From Synergistes jonesii (lineage in GTDB: Bacteria > Synergistota > Synergistia > Synergistales > Synergistaceae), in assembly GCF_000712295.1 (NCBI RefSeq), contig NZ_JMKI01000053.1, positions 1 through 59,365 of the forward strand: a stretch of 59,365 nucleotides of DNA. Direction: 5' to 3'. The notes beneath the pieces were generated by a model, which ran no database searches, was not told the origin of the DNA, and saw only the letters and a list, made by a program, of their open reading frames with translations. The position numbers were made by a program, and so were the translations under genes. The first letter of the stretch is position 1, and each line of letters opens with the position of its first letter. Shown here piece after piece: positions 24,959 through 53,190 of this stretch.

Positions 24959-25492
24959 ATGAGCGCTGTCATATCGTTCTGTGCCGGCGCCTTTCTGCTT
25001 TACTGGCCGTATCTCTGGTGCATGTACAGAAAGGAAGACCCCGGCGCCTACGGCCTCCGCTGGGAGTTCGATAGGCGCGATATAATGCAGACACTCGCCG
25101 TGTCTGCATTAATTTTGTCTTTCCTCACGATCGTCGCGGTGAATTGGCCGTGGGACGAACTCCCGCGCAGGCGCGGGCTGTGGGAAGCGTTGAACCTCGG
25201 AGCGTCTGGGCTCGCGGCCGCCGTCATCGAAGAAACTTTTTTCCGCGGATGGCTGCAGCCGACGTTTGAAAAAAAGCTCGGCCCTTACGCCGCGATCGTA
25301 GTCACCAATCTTATATTCGCGCCGCTGCACCTTATCGCGGCGCCGCGGCTCATATCGCTGTGCACCTTTTTCCCCGGAGTCGTCATGGGTCTGCTGAAGC
25401 ATCGCTATAAAAACCTCACGCCGCCGGCGCTCTTTCATTTTATCGGGAACGTCTGGGCGATATGGTTCTTCCCGACATCTATCGGTTTTTGA
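24959..25492 (+). CDS. CPBP-family intramembrane protease
   Basis: A membrane protein of 177 residues with the three Abi/CAAX-like motifs: Glu91-Glu92-xxx-Arg96, FxxxH (Phe120-His124) and HxxxN (His160-Asn164). About five hydrophobic segments are visible (near 3-22, 43-62, 80-90, 110-130, 133-147 and the C-terminus). Family members cleave prenylated or other membrane substrates; the substrate here is unknown. It follows perR by 7 nt and may be co-transcribed, which would make it peroxide-responsive. Confidence 0.85.
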   Translation: MSAVISFCAGAFLLYWPYLWCMYRKEDPGAYGLRWEFDRRDIMQTLAVSALILSFLTIVAVNWPWDELPRRRGLWEALNLGASGLAAAVIEETFFRGWLQPTFEKKLGPYAAIVVTNLIFAPLHLIAAPRLISLCTFFPGVVMGLLKHRYKNLTPPALFHFIGNVWAIWFFPTSIGF

Positions 25493-44525: not shown

Positions 44526-45833
44526 TTATGTGCGGCGTTTTTTTATAAAGCATGACAGTATCGCCAGAAGGGCGGCGATCCCAATTCCGCCGTTGCATCC
44601 ACCGCCGCCGTCTGAAGGCGTGTCAGGCTCCGCCGGGGTAACGGACCCCGTCGGGTTCACTGCAGTATATGCGGAAATATTGCCGCCTAAGTCGTTACTT
44701 CCGAACTCCTTCCAGTGCGTTCCGTCATAGCGCCAGAGGCTATAGCCGACGCCAATCCAAAGATATTTCGTGCCTTCGTCGTAGACCAATCCCAGGCGGT
44801 AGCCATATTTGCCTTTGAAATCCCTAAGTAGCGTGCCTATATCGCCATTCTGTAGTTTTTTCAGAGTCGTCTCGTAGAGACGGATGCTGTATCCCGGCGT
44901 ATAATCCTCGCCCGAAGTCCATTTGGCCGCCTGTATGTAGACCTTGTCGCCGGCTAAGACAATCGCGTCAAACATGTGCTTGAACGTTGGATCCATAGCG
45001 TTCACCTCTTCAGCGGTGATGAGGCTGCTGACCTCCATCGTACTAAGATCCGCCATCTCGACGCACGATTCGGGATTCCAATCATCCCCAAACTTCTGTA
45101 CGCCGCCCAGCGTGGCCACGTAGAGCTTGCCGTCGATCTGCGAATAGGCTCCCGGCGTGAAGCCGTCGAGGTTTTTGCCCTTCATCTCCACACGCTCCAA
45201 CTCGTTCAGCTCCGCGTCGAGCTTTATCAGATTGTTAAGCCGGTATGATCCCGAAGCCGTATCCCATGGGTCGTTGCTGCCGGTAAATATCGCGTAAATA
45301 TTGCCGTCATAGGCGCACAGAGCCTCGCCGTGACCGTCGTACTTGGAATCGTTGTGGAAGTATTCGTACTTCTTGTCCTGTTTGTAGACGTCGTCCGCTG
45401 TGGTGATACGGCTGACGATCGGAATATCATAAGCTGTGGCGTAAAGGCGGCCGCCCAGCTCTGCTATCGCCCTCGTATTGTGCAGCGTCGTCGTCGCCTC
45501 TCGCAGCGGTTTACTCCAGGCCGACGGCTGCGCCCACTGTGACTGTTCTCCTGGGTTATAAATGGGAATTACGTCGGTGCCGTTTCCGGTGTAGAGCGTC
45601 ACAGCGATGCGGAAATTGCCGTCGGCGTTCCTGAATGGGTAGAGGCCCTGCCCGGCATTCCCGCCCATATTGCTGATGAGCGGCGAGACGGGAGCTTCCG
45701 CCCCCTGGACTATGCCAAGCGCAGTGTTCGCATAATTGTTGTCCTGCCTGGTAAACAACAGATCGGCCCGCGCCGGCAGCGAAGCGACAAGCAGTAAGAG
45801 AATGATTAGCGGTAATACGATTTTTCTGCGCAT
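44526..45833 (-). CDS. Secreted propeller-like protein with Synergist-CTERM tail
   Basis: A signal peptide (1-23, ending ARA) precedes a mature domain with recurrent blade-like strands: GGRLYATAY 127-135, DGNIYAIFT 176-184, DGKLYVATL 234-242, GDKVYIQA 295-302 and GTKYLWIGV 354-362, about 55 residues apart, as in a beta-propeller. A Pro/Gly linker (about 394-412) leads to Cys413 in GGGGCNGG, a hydrophobic helix and KKRRT. It is the last gene of the cobalamin-riboswitch operon, 24 nt after the receptor gene. In Bacteroides the propeller BtuG caps BtuB; a similar role here is inference. Ligand unknown. Confidence 0.7.
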   Translation of the reverse strand: MRRKIVLPLIILLLLVASLPARADLLFTRQDNNYANTALGIVQGAEAPVSPLISNMGGNAGQGLYPFRNADGNFRIAVTLYTGNGTDVIPIYNPGEQSQWAQPSAWSKPLREATTTLHNTRAIAELGGRLYATAYDIPIVSRITTADDVYKQDKKYEYFHNDSKYDGHGEALCAYDGNIYAIFTGSNDPWDTASGSYRLNNLIKLDAELNELERVEMKGKNLDGFTPGAYSQIDGKLYVATLGGVQKFGDDWNPESCVEMADLSTMEVSSLITAEEVNAMDPTFKHMFDAIVLAGDKVYIQAAKWTSGEDYTPGYSIRLYETTLKKLQNGDIGTLLRDFKGKYGYRLGLVYDEGTKYLWIGVGYSLWRYDGTHWKEFGSNDLGGNISAYTAVNPTGSVTPAEPDTPSDGGGGCNGGIGIAALLAILSCFIKKRRT

Positions 45834-45857
45834 ATTGCTTCCTCCTATAATAATTTT

Positions 45858-47825
45858 TTAGAAAGTCCAAAGCAGGGCGGCGTAAAATGTCCTGCCCTGT
45901 ATCGGGTACCAGAGAACTCTTTCCGGACCGTTGCCGACGGCGAAAATCATCACGTCTGGGCCGGAGTTGAAAACATCGTCAACGCCGAAGACCAGCTTGA
46001 GGCCGTCGCGTATCTGCCAGTGCACGCCGAGACCCAAAGTCGTCAGATCGTCCCAGCCAACTTCTCCCTGCATATCGTAATAGTTCTTGCCTATATGGTG
46101 CAGCTCGGCAAAGAGCTTCGCGCGGTCGTCCTTAAAAATTTTTCTGCTCACGCGCAGCAATCCCTCAAACTCGGGGCGGTTGGGCAACGGATCGTCGTAC
46201 ATGTATCCCGGCGTCTTATTCTTAGGATTCATCCAAGTCGCGGAGAGATAAATATCCCACTTGTCGCGCTTTACCGTCGCTTCCAGTTCCACGCCGGATA
46301 TCTTCGCCTCTCCGATATTCACGTACTGCGCGTATCTGGGGTTGACCATCAGATAGTCGATGAGATTATTTGACTTGCGGTAGAAATAAGTCAGCTCGGC
46401 CCTGACCTGCGCCTTGGATATTTCTCCTTCCCAGCTCACGCCGGCGTCATACTGCGTGCCGTCCTCCCACTCAAGCTCTCTATTGGGGACTATGAACGCT
46501 CCGTCTCCGTAAAGCTCATAAAGATTGGGCGCACGGTTATAAGTACCTCCGGTCAGCTTCAGCGTCCAGCCTCTGTAAAACTTTTTCGTCAGCGCCGCGC
46601 CCCAGGAAAATTCCGTGACTCCTTCTGCGGCATTCCACCTTACGATCGGCGTGAACCATAAGTCGCCGGCTTTGTTGAGGCTGATAGTATCCTGTATCTG
46701 CCCGTTCCACGAATTGCGCGTGTGGCGCTCTCGCCCGCCGAATTTCTTAACGACATCTCCCATCGTATGGAGTTCTTCGTTGTAATAATTCCACAGAAAC
46801 TCGACCAAATGGCTATCGCCCAGCGGCAGCGAACCGTCGACGGCCGCGCCGAAACGCTTTGTCTCATATCTGTTGTGCTGCTCGCCCCAGCCTCCGATCT
46901 TATTCTCCGGGTCGTCATAATCCTTCGTCTGATGCAGGTATTCCAGACGCAGGCCGTAGTCAAGATCGCCAAGCCTGTCCTGTCGCATAACGATGGCGTT
47001 CCACTGGTCCGTTACCTGTGCGGCGCCGGGCACGCTGTCGAACTTGTCCGCGCCTGGGGCCGAATAGGGCAGCTCTCTGTCGTTGCGTTTCCAGCCGCCC
47101 TCTATCTTCCACTTATCGCCGTTCCACTTTAGCAGAAGATTAGAATTTTTATAGCCGCTGTTCTGCCTCTTCGCCTTATAGTCGTCGTCGGGGGTGTAAG
47201 GCGTGTTATTGTCGTTCCAATACTCAAAATCGCCGTCCGTGCGGTCGAAATTGACGGAGCCCATAAAAGCCCCCTCGCCCAACGGCGAGTGATATGTCAG
47301 GCCGCCCGTTAATCTACCGAAGGAGCCGACGCCGGCTGCGGCGGAGCAGCCGGCCTTCTTCGGCTTCACCGTGACGATGTTGATGACGCCGCCCATCGAG
47401 GCCCCGCCAAAGCGGGCGGGAATATAGCCGCGGTAGACTTCTATCCTTTCGACGTTTTCCACAGGGATAGTGGAAAGGTCGACTGCCGGTTCACTGCCAA
47501 GGTTCATCAGCACTCCGTCTACATAAACGGCTACCTGCGAGGAGCTGCTGCCGCGCACCGAGGCCGTTGTGTAGGCGCCGCGCCCTTTTGTTTCGATAAC
47601 GTGCAGCCCCGGCACCTGTTTGAGCAGTTCGGGAAGGTTCTTCTGTTCCCCCTTCATTTCCTGCGGCTTGATGACGGTGACGGTGCCCGGAGAGAGGAGC
47701 AGCTTCTCCTCCCGCTCTGCGTCGGCGGTGACCTTCTCCTCAGGCAAGCTCACTGCATTGTCCGCAGCGGCGGCCCCCGCGCAGAGGAAGAGGCACAGCG
47801 CTGTAATAAAAAGATATATCCTCAT
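45858..47825 (-). CDS. TonB-dependent outer-membrane receptor, BtuB-like (probable corrinoid transporter)
   Basis: It has a signal peptide (1-22), a possible TonB box (EEKVTA near 29-34), a plug domain (about 45-155, with LPELLKQVPGLHV, RGSSSSQVAVYVDGV and ERIEVYRGYIPARFGGASMGGVINI) and a 22-strand-type barrel ending in an aromatic residue (LLWTF). Length 655 fits BtuB/Cir-size receptors. The cobalamin riboswitch ahead of the operon makes B12 or another corrinoid the likely substrate. It lies between the GLUG protein and the propeller-like protein. No tonB, exbBD or btuFCD is in the window. Presence of this family shows an outer membrane. Confidence 0.9.
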   Translation of the reverse strand: MRIYLFITALCLFLCAGAAAADNAVSLPEEKVTADAEREEKLLLSPGTVTVIKPQEMKGEQKNLPELLKQVPGLHVIETKGRGAYTTASVRGSSSSQVAVYVDGVLMNLGSEPAVDLSTIPVENVERIEVYRGYIPARFGGASMGGVINIVTVKPKKAGCSAAAGVGSFGRLTGGLTYHSPLGEGAFMGSVNFDRTDGDFEYWNDNNTPYTPDDDYKAKRQNSGYKNSNLLLKWNGDKWKIEGGWKRNDRELPYSAPGADKFDSVPGAAQVTDQWNAIVMRQDRLGDLDYGLRLEYLHQTKDYDDPENKIGGWGEQHNRYETKRFGAAVDGSLPLGDSHLVEFLWNYYNEELHTMGDVVKKFGGRERHTRNSWNGQIQDTISLNKAGDLWFTPIVRWNAAEGVTEFSWGAALTKKFYRGWTLKLTGGTYNRAPNLYELYGDGAFIVPNRELEWEDGTQYDAGVSWEGEISKAQVRAELTYFYRKSNNLIDYLMVNPRYAQYVNIGEAKISGVELEATVKRDKWDIYLSATWMNPKNKTPGYMYDDPLPNRPEFEGLLRVSRKIFKDDRAKLFAELHHIGKNYYDMQGEVGWDDLTTLGLGVHWQIRDGLKLVFGVDDVFNSGPDVMIFAVGNGPERVLWYPIQGRTFYAALLWTF

Positions 47826-47895
47826 ATCTTCCGCCTTTCAGTGACTGGGACGCCCCGGCTCCGTATGTGCCGGAGCATCCCGCCGTCTATCCTGG

Positions 47896-50376
47896 CTATG
47901 CCCCAGAATTATTTCGTGACCTTCTCTTTGCCGCGTGTGTGACGAGGGGGATCGCCGCCAGCAGCATAATTCCCATGTACCCGGCGGCATTGCAGCCCCC
48001 GGAGGAGCCGCTAGACGATGCTGGGGGCTGCGGGGCTTCCGCCAACCTGACGACGGCGATCGAACTGATGATGCCGCACTCCGCCGGGTTGAGGTCAAAG
48101 CCACCGTTGTCCTGGATGTAAAGCGCCAGTTTGTAGGAAGCGTCCGGGTCGATTTCATCCTCGGGGGCCATCATCCTGTCGTCCATCGTCTGCAACGTGA
48201 AACGCTTGTCGCCGAAGGCGTCCTGATCTTCGGCGTAGGCGAAGAACTCCCCTGTGCCGTCCGGACGCGTGCAGACGAGCGCCGCCTTTTGCGGCGTATC
48301 GGCCATCAGCAGGTCGCCGCTGACTACTAAAGCCGCCACAGCGAGCTTGTTCGGCTGCCGTGTGGTCATCTGCATGACGGGCAGCGGCTTTATCTGCGTT
48401 ATCTCCGCCTTGTCCAGCGAGGCGGCGTAGTCGACCGCGGCTCCGAGCAGCGCTGAACTGAGGAAGGCGACGCCCTTTGAATTGGTTCTGAACGCCGATA
48501 TGTCGGCGCCGCAGGCGGCGGCGATATCGACGAGCATATCCGAGGTCGCGCCCACTACTTTCAACGCCTCCGCGTAGGTCGGGACTACGCTGCCGGCCGG
48601 AATGATGCCGGAGATGTCCACATCCTTGATCTGCTCACCTTCAAGCGTGATGGAATCCTTGAATCCTCCGTCGGCAGTCGCAACAGTGAAGGTGTACCCG
48701 TAGGCCTTATCGTGTCCCTTCCTCAGCGTAACCCGAAGAGTTCCGTCTTCCCTACGCTCCAAGAGCACGTCGTCGGAGAGGGCCTCGCCGGACAGCGCGG
48801 AAAGGCTCCAGGCGACGCTCGTGTCGTCTGCGTCGGAGGGAAGCACGGCGACGCCGAGGGTACGCGTCTCCCCCTCCGTCAGCTCAGATCTGTCGCCGTA
48901 GGCAATAACGGCTTCCACCGGGATGTTGCCTTTAGCTACTTTAAGCGTCGCTTCAAGCGTCACGGAGGTTTCAAAGTTCGATATATATCTGTCCTTCGGC
49001 TGGCCGGAACCTGTGTCCGTATGGCCGAGAAGGCCTTTTATATCGGCGGAGAGCGCCGCGTAGGAGATATCATCCGCTGTAGCGAGGGCCTTGACCTTAA
49101 TCGTTTTCGAGCCCTGCCCGCTTATTATTTGGAGCTTAGCCCCGTCCGCGTGCCAGGTATATTTGAGCCCCGAGGCGTCGGCCTGCGGCGGATAGGAGAT
49201 GATGTGTACCTCGCGCTCTTCGCCGGGCTTGATCGTGCCGAAGTCGGCTGCGTCGAATATCGCGGCGGCCACCGGCAGCTTGCTTTCGTCCGTCACCCTG
49301 CCGTATTCGTAGTGCCCCATAGATGCGTTGCCGTTCAGCGGCTGATCGTCCGTCATCTTGAGCCAGTAGCAGTTCTGATAATCATAACCGAAGGCGCCGA
49401 CTACGCCGCCGGTGTAGCCTGCGGCGCCACTGATCTTAGCGGCTACCGACACGGAATCTGCCGTGATGTTGCTGTTGAAGCCTCCGAAAATGCCGCCGGC
49501 GTCCATGCCGGAGATTATCGAGTTGGACATTACGACGCAGTTGCGGACTTCGCCGTGGTACCACGATGAGAAGCCAACTACACCGCCTGCGTAAGCATAA
49601 CTTATCGGAACCGAAGCTACTGGGCCGAAGACGACGCAGTTGCGTATCATAGCCTTGATGCCATCCGTCACAGGTCCGGTACCGTCACCCCTTGGGTTGC
49701 CGTTGAGCCCGGCGATGCCTCCGGCGTAGCCCCTCTTAGAGCTGGTGGCGAATACCGCCACATCGGTGGCGCAGTTTTCGATCAAGCCGTCGGCCCAACC
49801 GGCGACGCCTCCGACGCCTTCGCATTTGGAGGCATCGACGCTCCCCTTGACGACAAGGTTTTTGACCGTACCTTCGTTGTCCAGATAGCCGAAGAGCCCC
49901 GCCGTTTCGCTCTGCGTATCGTTATGCACGTAGAGATTCTCGCAGGTGACTATAGAAAGGCCGGATATGGTATGGCCACCGCCGTCGAAGGTGCCGTCGA
50001 AACCTTTATAATTTGGAATTACACTAAACCCGCTTTGAACTGACTTATAGTCGATCTTCCACCCTATCGGCGCCCACTCTTTCCCCTGGAGGTCGATGTT
50101 GCGCGTTAGCAAGATGTGTTTATCCTTAAAATAGATACTTGGGTCAAACCAGTTGCCGACCCTGTTCGTCAGCTTCGCAAGCCCGGCGAGCTCCTCCGGC
50201 GTCGAGATGAGGAAAGGCTTTTCCTTGGTGCCGCGTTCGTTTTTGTAGTCGTCATACCACCTGGTGTCCGGCGTCCACGAGTCGGCGTACACGGCGGCGG
50301 CGAAGACTAAGAGTATCAGCAGCGCTAGCTGCGCCGCGACGGCCCGTTTTGTTTTTAAGAGAGTCCTTACGTTCAT
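47896..50376 (-). CDS. Large surface protein with GLUG repeats and Synergist-CTERM tail
   Basis: It has a signal peptide (to about 31), then FLISTPEELAGLAKLTN (55-71) and a run of GLUG-like segments forming a probable beta-helix (GLFGYLD, GVGGVAGWA, GYAGGIAGL, YAGGVVGF, DAGGIFGG, YTGGVVGAFG; about 160-325). Two Ig-like segments (about 375-585) and an uncharacterised C-terminal region follow. The tail has SSGGCNAAG, a hydrophobic stretch and a basic end, the Synergist-CTERM pattern. Length 826. It begins 12 nt after the other GLUG gene. Role unknown; binding at the cell surface is inferred. Confidence 0.75.
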   Translation of the reverse strand: MNVRTLLKTKRAVAAQLALLILLVFAAAVYADSWTPDTRWYDDYKNERGTKEKPFLISTPEELAGLAKLTNRVGNWFDPSIYFKDKHILLTRNIDLQGKEWAPIGWKIDYKSVQSGFSVIPNYKGFDGTFDGGGHTISGLSIVTCENLYVHNDTQSETAGLFGYLDNEGTVKNLVVKGSVDASKCEGVGGVAGWADGLIENCATDVAVFATSSKRGYAGGIAGLNGNPRGDGTGPVTDGIKAMIRNCVVFGPVASVPISYAYAGGVVGFSSWYHGEVRNCVVMSNSIISGMDAGGIFGGFNSNITADSVSVAAKISGAAGYTGGVVGAFGYDYQNCYWLKMTDDQPLNGNASMGHYEYGRVTDESKLPVAAAIFDAADFGTIKPGEEREVHIISYPPQADASGLKYTWHADGAKLQIISGQGSKTIKVKALATADDISYAALSADIKGLLGHTDTGSGQPKDRYISNFETSVTLEATLKVAKGNIPVEAVIAYGDRSELTEGETRTLGVAVLPSDADDTSVAWSLSALSGEALSDDVLLERREDGTLRVTLRKGHDKAYGYTFTVATADGGFKDSITLEGEQIKDVDISGIIPAGSVVPTYAEALKVVGATSDMLVDIAAACGADISAFRTNSKGVAFLSSALLGAAVDYAASLDKAEITQIKPLPVMQMTTRQPNKLAVAALVVSGDLLMADTPQKAALVCTRPDGTGEFFAYAEDQDAFGDKRFTLQTMDDRMMAPEDEIDPDASYKLALYIQDNGGFDLNPAECGIISSIAVVRLAEAPQPPASSSGSSGGCNAAGYMGIMLLAAIPLVTHAAKRRSRNNSGA

Positions 50377-50388
50377 CTTGCTTTCCTC

Positions 50389-52344
50389 CTATTTCCGGCA
50401 TCCGCGCCTGACGCTCACCGCCATAAACGCCGCCGGCAGCAGCAGCGCCAGCAACACTATTGGGCCGCAGGCCACCGTCGAACAGCCGCCGGAGCTTCCG
50501 CCGCCGGGAGTCACCGTGTCTGCCTTGGCCGTGACGGTCAAAGAGGCCGATAGGCCCGTTCCGTCAACGGCTTTCGCAGTAAGCTTATATCGTGCCCCTT
50601 CAACGAAATTCACGAGCGTTACCTTCACCCGGCGCGTCGATTCGATATAAGTTATCTCAAGGTCGTCAGTCGTGGCCGCGTCGCCGGAGATTACTTCGTA
50701 GCTCCATTTCAGTTCCGGGTATGAGACACCACTTTCGGGAGTGATGGAGGCTGCCACCTCTTCGCTCGCACCGGCGCTCTTGAGGATTATCTCCTCCGCG
50801 CTGAGTAACAGCTCTTGCAGCGAGGAGAGCACACTCAGCACGACCGCCTTAAGCGACCATGAATTTCCGCCTGGAAAGCCTGAGGCGCTAAGGTAAAGTT
50901 CGGTCGTTCCGCTTTTTCCGCTCCTTATCACAGCAGTATCGCTGGAGTAGGCCACAGAAAGAGCGGATTTATCCGAGGTCCCCCAGGAAAACCCGAGTTC
51001 GCCCATGTCGCCGCAGTTAGTTGGGAAGACAAGAGCCTTTATTGTTGTAGGAATGTTTTCCACAACCTTATAAATAGGCGGCAGTATCACTGAAGCCGCA
51101 CGGAGGTTTTTCGCCTCGATCACCTTGAGAGCCTGTTCGTCGGTTATTTCGTCAATGTCGCCGACGGCTTCTTCCGCCCGTCCGTCGCCGCCGAGCCATT
51201 CGCATCCTGTGAAGGTGGATATCCTTGCTCCGTGCCCGATCAGGCCGCCGATCATTGCCGACGGCGCTGAAATAGAGACGGCGGAGGAGCAGTATTCAAA
51301 TAATATGTTGTTGGTATAGCCCACGACGCCGCCAACATAGAGTCTCTTGCCCTCCGCAGCGGAGGCCGTTATTTTTCCTTCTCCAGTACAAGCCACAATA
51401 GCATTGCTGGCCCAAAGATTTCCCGCGACTCCGCCAATCTGGGCGCTTTGCGCGGTCTTTATATTCATATCACAGAAGCTCGCGCAGTTTGTCATCGAAC
51501 CGACAGTATGTATCCATCCCGCGATACCTCCTATATATGATGTCCCGCCAAGCGAGGCGTCCCCTGGAGCCGTAAGTACTATCGAGCCGGTAAAGCCGCA
51601 GTTTTCAACAGCGCGTCCGGCTTCCCCCACCACGCCCCCTACAGTGGCGTCATAAGACAGGCTGATATCCGCCGAGACATAACAATTTAGGAAACTACAC
51701 CAGCTCATACCGGAAATGCCTCCGACATGCCCGTGGCTGTCGGAAGAGATTTTTCCACTAAAGGAGCAGTTTTCAATTGTTTTGTTGATCGTCCCATTGG
51801 CGGTTGCCTGTGTGGCACCCAACAGTCCACCGATGTAGAAGCCAACAGATCCGGCGTCTTTGTCCGCCTGGGATGGGCGTATATCTCCCTCTATATGCAG
51901 GTTTTTAAAGACAGGATAGACAGCTTCGCAATAGCCGAAAAGACCGATATATGAAATATATGAAATGCCATCACTAATGGGATTTTTTATTTCGCCAAGT
52001 CCACTTACTTTATGCCCGCAACCGTCAAAAGTGCCACGAAAACAATGCAGAAGCTGCCAGCCGGTCTTGGTGCGGTGGCCGATGGCCGTCCATGTCCCGC
52101 CAGAAAGGTCTATGTCGCTCGCCAGTTTCACCGTCTTGCCTTCAAACTGCTCTGTGCCGTCGTTCACGAGCTTAGCAAGCCCTGCAAGCTCCTCGGCAGT
52201 GTTAATCGTGAAGGTAGCGTCCGCTGAGTTCGCCTCATACCAGCCGATGTCGGCTGACTCTATCCAATTCGCAGCCGAGGCCGCACCGGCGAATAATAAA
52301 AGCGCAGCGAGGATGATGTGAAAAGTGATTTTTCTTATGAGCAT
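50389..52344 (-). CDS. Surface protein with GLUG repeats and Synergist-CTERM tail (first gene of the operon)
   Basis: A paralogue of the following gene, 651 residues: signal peptide (1-25), INTAEELAGLAKLVND at 47-62, DIDLSGGTWTAIGH at 77-90, then GLUG-like turns (IGLFGYCE, YIGGLLGA, HVGGISGM, TVGGVVGE, YIGGIAGW, QIGGVAGN, YVGGVVGY, MIGGLIGH) to about 380. An Ig-like part (about 415-600) and SSGGCST-hydrophobic-basic tail (614-651) follow. GGAGGG lies about 10 nt before ATG. It is directly downstream of the riboswitch leader, so B12 should repress it. Function not known. Confidence 0.75.
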   Translation of the reverse strand: MLIRKITFHIILAALLLFAGAASAANWIESADIGWYEANSADATFTINTAEELAGLAKLVNDGTEQFEGKTVKLASDIDLSGGTWTAIGHRTKTGWQLLHCFRGTFDGCGHKVSGLGEIKNPISDGISYISYIGLFGYCEAVYPVFKNLHIEGDIRPSQADKDAGSVGFYIGGLLGATQATANGTINKTIENCSFSGKISSDSHGHVGGISGMSWCSFLNCYVSADISLSYDATVGGVVGEAGRAVENCGFTGSIVLTAPGDASLGGTSYIGGIAGWIHTVGSMTNCASFCDMNIKTAQSAQIGGVAGNLWASNAIVACTGEGKITASAAEGKRLYVGGVVGYTNNILFEYCSSAVSISAPSAMIGGLIGHGARISTFTGCEWLGGDGRAEEAVGDIDEITDEQALKVIEAKNLRAASVILPPIYKVVENIPTTIKALVFPTNCGDMGELGFSWGTSDKSALSVAYSSDTAVIRSGKSGTTELYLSASGFPGGNSWSLKAVVLSVLSSLQELLLSAEEIILKSAGASEEVAASITPESGVSYPELKWSYEVISGDAATTDDLEITYIESTRRVKVTLVNFVEGARYKLTAKAVDGTGLSASLTVTAKADTVTPGGGSSGGCSTVACGPIVLLALLLPAAFMAVSVRRGCRK

Positions 52345-52407
52345 CGTTATTTTTCCCTCCTTCGATTTATTGAGCTTCTTTCGACGCCTGAATAGCGGAA
52401 GAAGTTC

Positions 52408-52467
52408 TCAACCGTCGGGTGAATGCTGGAAAAATAACGCCGTCTTTTTATAAGGGAATAACGACAT
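52408..52467 (-). CDS. Possible 19-residue leader peptide in the riboswitch leader
   Basis: A short ORF (MSLFPYKKTALFFQHSPDG) with AGGAG 8 nt before its ATG lies between the second leader hairpin and the first GLUG gene. It is not part of the aptamer. It may be a chance ORF; there is no homology or codon-use evidence. Confidence 0.3.
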   Translation of the reverse strand: MSLFPYKKTALFFQHSPDG

Positions 52468-52488
52468 CTTCTCAGCTCCTTTCATATA

Positions 52489-52513
52489 AAGGCGGTCAGA
52501 TAACATCCGCCTT
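52489..52513 (-). terminator. Terminator-like hairpin in the riboswitch expression platform
   Basis: AAGGCGG and CCGCCTT form a 7-bp stem with an 11-nt loop, followed on the minus strand by TATATG. The U-tract is weak. It lies about 155 nt past the aptamer and upstream of the first gene. Confidence 0.4.
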
Positions 52514-52544
52514 CGCCGGAGCGGGAAGACCTTGACATAGATAA

Positions 52545-52582
52545 GGGAGAGAGCGTTGTGTGATGCAAAACGACTCTCTCCC
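52545..52582 (-). promoter_or_regulatory. Long hairpin downstream of the cobalamin aptamer
   Basis: GGGAGAGAG and CTCTCTCCC are perfect 9-bp arms; inside them CGTT/AACG adds four more pairs with one unpaired base. The structure is stable but lacks a T-run, so it may be an expression-platform element or a pausing hairpin. Confidence 0.5.
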
Positions 52583-52668
52583 CTATGAATATGTACACAA
52601 CATCTGTTTGCATACAAAAAGTATATGCGGAAATCGCCGTCCTGCGCCCGCTGCGCATCGCTAACTCC

Positions 52669-52915
52669 GAATCCCCGGTAGGTCTTCTGGCTCCCGTTCA
52701 TCCTACTGCAAAGCGTCTGTCCCACTTTGCATAAACAGCTTACGCGAATTTGTAAAAAGCATGCAAACTTGTTTTGCTGTTTACCCCGCGCCTTCTCACC
52801 CGTGTCGCTAACCTAAGGCGGCGACTGTCGGCAATGGCATATCGCGGTTTCGTCCCGATTACAGCAGCAGCGGCTGCCCCGGCTTTCATACCGGATTCCC
52901 TGGCTCCGCAGATTC
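52669..52915 (-). ncRNA. Cobalamin (B12) riboswitch aptamer
   Basis: Read on the minus strand the order of conserved elements is right. The P1-like pair is GAATC/GATTC (complement 52911-52915 and 52669-52673). GAATCCGGTATGAAAGCCGG is followed by GCTGCTGTAATC, then the central CCATTGCC-containing core, and finally the hallmark AGCCAGAAGACCT (complement 52680-52692). It precedes the operon with the TonB receptor. Binding of adenosylcobalamin or another corrinoid should lower expression of all four genes. Confidence 0.93.
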
Positions 52916-52923
52916 TGAATTTT

Positions 52924-52952
52924 TAATTACTCAATCGACCGACGCATTTCAA
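52924..52952 (-). promoter_or_regulatory. Candidate promoter for the riboswitch operon
   Basis: TTGAAA (complement 52947-52952), 17 nt, TAATTA (complement 52924-52929). The start point would be close to 52917, right at the aptamer 5' end, which supports the weak -10. Confidence 0.4.
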
Positions 52953-53190
52953 GGTTGTCTTTTACCGGCAGAAGCCCCCCTTCCTATATCGCCACATTTG
53001 CGGTTTACACTGTTTTCACAAAACAAAAACAACTAATAAACGATATGACAACAACAAACATACAGCACCGTACAGAGGACGTATCGCAACATACCAGACT
53101 CTTCCGTAGAAAGCCGAACCAATGTACAGTGCGCTTTCAAGCTTGGAGTAAAGTATAACATCTACGCCACCTCTGTCAAGACATACTCGC

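Follow-up and report, generated by a model that had tools for sequence, protein, structure and literature searches.

Known systems and the studied locus

The BtuB–BtuG corrinoid capture complex is known from Bacteroides thetaiotaomicron (PMC6143338, PMC10404256). A BlastP survey of genomes from the human gut led to the description of BtuG as exclusive to Bacteroidetes, and the extreme affinity of BtuG for B12 was related to competition in the gut (PMC6143338). The XusA–XusB xenosiderophore system of Bacteroides likewise consists of a TonB receptor and a surface propeller, the ligand being a siderophore. Here we describe an operon of Synergistes jonesii that quite probably encodes a corrinoid-repressed outer-membrane uptake system of the BtuB–BtuG type with a different surface anchoring. 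Since BtuG was described as exclusive to Bacteroidetes, such a pair outside Bacteroidota would depart from the known distribution of BtuG-type capture. The operon is located on contig NZ_JMKI01000053.1 (C53), which was analyzed at its full length of 59,365 bp and is further referred to as the window; the assembly (2.74 Mb) is 99.85% complete.

As in the BtuB–BtuG system, the propeller gene and the adjoining gene of a BtuB-type receptor are preceded by a corrinoid riboswitch, several paralogous pairs are encoded in one genome, and the folds nearest to the propeller model are those of BtuG1–3. The differences are the phylum, the low sequence identity (13–16% in structural alignments), the accessory GLUG proteins in place of BtuH, and the anchor: BtuG is a lipobox lipoprotein, whereas the Synergistes propeller has a signal-peptidase-I-type leader and a Synerg-CTERM tail.

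Operon organization and regulatory region

Four co-directional open reading frames (ORFs) on the minus strand lie 3' of a cobalamin riboswitch aptamer (52660..52925, minus strand; RF00174, 55.1 bits with the gathering score of 31.5, full model 1–189). They encode GLUG1, GLUG2, a TonB receptor and a 435-aa protein and are separated by gaps of 12, 70 and 24 bp; the next minus-strand gene is found approximately 0.35 kb past the stop codon of the last one. A reading made from the sequence alone (further, the sequence-only reading) had placed a cobalamin aptamer upstream of two GLUG proteins, a TonB receptor and a propeller-like protein, and this was confirmed by the RF00174 score, Pfam, NCBIfam and the gene order. 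The arrangement exceeds chance, as the same cassette occurs behind riboswitches twice more in the genome and in many relatives.

A strong hairpin 3' of the aptamer (52541..52586, minus strand, GGGGAGAGAG...CTCTCTCCC; RNA fold of a 136-nt stretch, z −3.9) is a candidate expression platform. It has no real U-run, and hence the control could be exerted by termination or at the level of translation. On the 5' side of the aptamer, a sigma-70-type consensus scan revealed the promoter-like site TTGACA-16-TATACT with an extended −10 box (53152..53179, minus strand, 11 of 12 consensus positions). Such a site is weak by itself, given that three were found in the region with approximately 1.7 expected by chance.

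Fold of the 435-aa protein

The product of the last gene (44526..45833, minus strand) has a Sec signal peptide, a propeller and a CTERM tail. The leader MRRKIVLPLIILLLLVASLPARADLLF contains no lipobox cysteine, and the predicted anchor is the C-terminal cysteine tail. The propeller domain (44652..45761, minus strand) was delimited in alignment A4, which spans phyla. At the level of sequence, a phmmer search of the protein against PDB sequences returned no match, propellers being reached solely by a profile of 20 sequences, and Pfam yielded only sub-threshold kelch and DUF5074 hints. AlphaFold2 with a four-sequence alignment produced a beta-propeller with a mean predicted local distance difference test score (pLDDT) of 70.3 and a predicted template modelling score of 0.78. 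When this model was compared with PDB using VIA-align, the best ten entries were BtuG1, BtuG2, BtuG3 or the Bacteroides uniformis homologue 3DSM (Z from 23.4 to 21.9), and 273–282 residues were aligned to the BtuG entries with a root-mean-square deviation of approximately 3.0. BtuG2 was second and XusB third in the Foldseek list. The class assigned here, the fold of the seven-bladed BtuG, follows from the structural match and not from a count of blades. Thus, the propeller suggested by the sequence-only reading was recovered by AlphaFold2, with BtuG as the closest fold in VIA-align and BtuG2 in second place in Foldseek; in the model the fold is nearest to BtuG, a common fold being no proof of a common ligand or descent.

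TonB receptor

The second component of the pair, a BtuB-like TonB-dependent receptor of 655 aa (45858..47825, minus strand), contains a plug (PF07715, 2.5e-22) and a barrel (PF00593, 3.9e-29) and has no CTERM tail. Its best NCBIfam family is TonB-B12 (TIGR01779, 4.8e-47), and the best match of the receptor profile A2 among PDB sequences is E. coli BtuB. The latter works without a surface lid. The structural model (pLDDT 65.7) aligns with TonB receptors, and the XusA–XusB system is also present in the fold lists.

Other cobalamin loci of the genome

The genome contains eight cobalamin riboswitches. Three of them precede paralogous receptor–propeller pairs: apart from the window operon, a 661-aa receptor and a 426-aa propeller are encoded behind the riboswitch at C38:44100, and the riboswitch at C31:137017 is followed by the genes of a 684-aa receptor, a 589-aa propeller and other CTERM proteins. 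Identity to the window copy is 59 and 61% for the two other receptors and 35 and 40% for the two other propellers. The third cassette also encodes a protein that combines a CTERM tail with a flavin-reductase-like domain (L013:13540-15153; PF01613, 3e-12), an unusual feature of a surface-sorted protein.

A further riboswitch (C5:27093) heads the one-strand operon btuF-btuD-btuC-cbiR-exbB-exbD-tonB (L014:12856-18204). For CbiR, a cobamide remodelling enzyme, the score of 208 bits exceeds the equivalog cut-off of 105; the assignment of BtuF, BtuC and BtuD relies on family matches under the cut-off, and ExbB and ExbD belong to the ExbB/TolQ and ExbD/TolR families by score. The tonB gene of this operon is the only match to PF03544 (TonB_C) in the genome. 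The location of the only TonB in the btuFDC-cbiR operon is the strongest single argument that corrinoids are the ligands of the TonB-dependent receptors of this bacterium. Riboswitches at C38:37886 and C54:5415 head a methylmalonyl-CoA-mutase pair with MeaB and the CbiK/CbiD biosynthesis region, respectively.

GLUG proteins and C-terminal tails

GLUG1 (50389..52344, minus strand, 651 aa) has a signal peptide, GLUG repeats (Pfam Glug, 6.9e-8) and a cysteine-containing CTERM-like tail. GLUG2 (47896..50376, minus strand, 826 aa) has a GLUG repeat (Pfam Glug, 3e-4), a PKD-like hint and a Synerg-CTERM tail. No DUF4465 or BtuH-type match was obtained for these proteins in the Pfam scan, which showed just Glug and a weak PKD_6. 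Tandems of GLUG1 and GLUG2 beside the cassette were found in this genome and in G072, G135 and G076, all from one family; this restriction marks the GLUG proteins as accessory. This qualifies the sequence-only reading: the GLUG proteins share the operon with the receptor and the propeller, but are not in the core pair. A separate ORF of 1444 aa with its own cobalamin riboswitch (L012:4407-8741; C37:107002) joins GLUG1-CTERM in frame to GLUG2-CTERM, so that the first sorting tail is internal and precedes another signal peptide.

As claimed initially, all operon proteins except the receptor end in cysteine-containing CTERM or CTERM-like tails. The tail of GLUG2 (47944..48006, minus strand) was found by the TIGR04564 model above its cut-off (26.7 bits). 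The tail of the propeller protein (44535..44609, minus strand) exceeds the TIGR04564 cut-off of 22.5 only in the genome scan (23.7 bits), scoring 18.6 bits in the protein scan. The tail of GLUG1 was missed by TIGR04564 and was recognized by reading its C-terminus (GGCSTVACG, a hydrophobic segment, RRGCRK).

The window also encodes MrtS, the Synerg-CTERM glutamic intramembrane protease (24959..25492, plus strand; NF040589, 239.7 bits with the cut-off of 130); no other Rce1-like gene was found in the genome. GspD of the type II secretion system is present above the cut-off on C16. In Myxococcus, the MYXO-CTERM tail is cut by the CPBP-family protease MrtX and the protein is displayed on the surface, lipidation and type II export having been proposed (PMC11980579). 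The Synergistota tails share with MYXO-CTERM the C-terminal cysteine motif, the hydrophobic helix and the basic end; they differ in the family and the protease, TIGR04564 and MrtS, and their processing is predicted. By analogy, CTERM proteins of Synergistota may be displayed on the surface via MrtS. No paper on Synergist-CTERM was found in the open-licence literature.

We also considered that corrinoid loci might be the main clients of the CTERM system. Seven of the 11 Synerg-CTERM genes of this genome are at such loci, but the suggestion fails family-wide, with 27 of 150 near cobalamin riboswitches among the matches listed. In G072 (L057:2447-4880), a gene matched by eye to MrtS of the window (177 aa, next to a Fur-like gene) is approximately 2 kb from the propeller operon; the interval contains two more cobalamin riboswitches.

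Recurrence in Synergistota and Negativicutes

A profile of the three propellers was searched in 151 Synergistota genomes, tail-only matches being excluded. In total, 47 propeller-domain matches were found in 27 genomes; these counts are raw and not weighted for relatedness. A same-strand riboswitch is located upstream within 1 kb in 16 of the 47 cases, within 5 kb in 29 and within 10 kb in 33, whereas the numbers expected under uniform placement are 0.04 (1 kb) and 0.43 (10 kb). A same-strand receptor was observed within 1 kb of 28 propellers, and 27 propellers have both elements, receptor and riboswitch, within 15 kb. Several of the missing cases are at contig ends. Cobalamin riboswitches and receptors are therefore present at the homologous loci (33/47 and 28/47), as the sequence-only reading had anticipated.

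The family extends to Sporomusa ovata DSM 2662, a member of Negativicutes. Its propeller (26% identity, no CTERM) is located behind two tandem cobalamin riboswitches, and its 1003-aa receptor is 43% identical to the window receptor over aligned positions. In the order of this species the propeller was found in 9 of 28 genomes, most copies adjoining a receptor behind riboswitches, and in Negativicutes, in 41 of 250 genomes. There it is encoded by a free gene or forms the N-terminal domain of a giant autotransporter: in many genomes it occupies residues ~35–414 of a 1,700–4,700-aa protein whose gene immediately follows that of the receptor; the five C-termini tested contain PF03797 autotransporter domains (1e-36 or better). 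An upstream riboswitch was seen at six of these giant-autotransporter loci; others are cut by contig ends. Over 61 receptor–propeller pairs, the distances between receptors and between propellers correlate (Spearman 0.72, 0 of 2000 permutations), shared ancestry contributing to this value.

Single chains of 1414–1764 aa combine a PF03797 autotransporter barrel with a following TonB plug and TonB barrel and thus contain two outer-membrane barrels (L105:4554-8945, L112:5251-9534, L114:5543-10837, L116:9145-13476, L153:117-5219, L154:8796-13040, L155:6741-11141 and L164:1860-6923). They adjoin a propeller gene, mostly near RF00174 matches; the literature search found no mention of such chains. 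Propellers of many Sporomusales and relatives have neither a signal peptide (often starting with MSENLFAY) nor CTERM; they were observed at L079, L100, L148, L157, L158 and L106, as well as at L110, L111, L112, L153 and L164. Cobalamin riboswitch matches number 33 in S. ovata (G151) and 38 in G168, many of them tandem. No paper on corrinoid uptake in Synergistota, on an autotransporter together with a cobalamin riboswitch, or on a beta-propeller with a TonB-dependent protein and a cobalamin riboswitch was found in the open-licence literature. Outside the subject of this study, the window starts within a 16S rRNA gene (positions 1–871, RF00177).

Interpretation

Low intracellular corrinoid would allow expression of the operon through the riboswitch. 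The propeller, presumably exposed on the surface as a lid on the receptor, would bind corrinoids and deliver them to the BtuB-like receptor encoded next to it, in the manner of BtuG on BtuB. TonB–ExbBD would power the import, BtuFCD would carry the corrinoid inward, and CbiR would remodel it. The two GLUG proteins, members of the same regulon, would have an accessory role at the surface, perhaps providing extra capture or a scaffold.

Several observations weigh against this assignment. E. coli YncE follows in the VIA-align list with Z 21.5, approximately 1–2 Z units behind BtuG, and the propeller model is weak in its N- and C-terminal parts. A 20-sequence A4 profile ranks designed kelch propellers (4e-11) before BtuG (3.5e-6). 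The receptor scores 160.8 bits and does not reach the TIGR01779 equivalog cut-off of 599.7, and many Sporomusales propellers have no signal peptide, which surface capture does not explain. Finally, the receptor model matches CirA, PirA and BtuB about equally; because of these ties, the receptor fold search, tried as a means to separate BtuB from siderophore receptors, was not used as evidence on the ligand.

The same ties, together with the third place of XusB in the Foldseek list, favor an alternative in which the pair takes a xenosiderophore, haem or a cobalt complex, as XusA–XusB does with its ligand, and is merely regulated by corrinoids. We regard this as unlikely, since cobalamin riboswitches are tied to the pair in two phyla, the only TonB gene is in the btuFDC-cbiR operon, and the receptor has BtuB both as its best sequence family and as its best match among PDB sequences. 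GLUG motifs occur in large surface proteins, and most Synerg-CTERM genes of the family are away from cobalamin riboswitches by the count above, so the GLUG proteins and the propeller might be adhesins or structural proteins regulated by corrinoids by chance, with uptake by the receptor alone. This has slightly less in its favor still, as the closest solved folds of the propeller are BtuG, it directly adjoins the receptor in 28 of 47 cases, and the distances in the two families correlate. The 70-bp gap before the receptor gene and the 4.8 kb between the latter and the riboswitch could indicate that the riboswitch governs the GLUG genes alone and that the receptor and the propeller have their own unregulated promoter, but this is highly improbable, since the gene immediately behind the riboswitch is that of the receptor or the propeller in the two other cassettes of the genome as well as in most relatives.

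The corrinoid capture complex proposed by the sequence-only reading for a diderm phylum is thus supported by the BtuG-nearest propeller and the riboswitch–receptor loci. An 'independent' (convergent) origin is conceivable, and so is common descent of this propeller family with BtuG, because sequence profiles match generic propellers at least as well as BtuG. On balance we favor the broader view that a BtuB-linked family of corrinoid-capture propellers exists in at least two diderm groups beyond Bacteroidota and is placed on the surface by different machines: Synergistota would use Synerg-CTERM with MrtS, and Negativicutes would fuse the propeller to the N-terminus of giant autotransporters, some of their receptors being joined in a single chain to a preceding autotransporter barrel.

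If this is true, lid-assisted corrinoid scavenging would be a general strategy of diderm bacteria, the same operon logic being seen in Synergistota and Negativicutes, and Synerg-CTERM and MrtS would gain defined clients for experiments. It also suggests that the lid may be displayed by quite different export systems.

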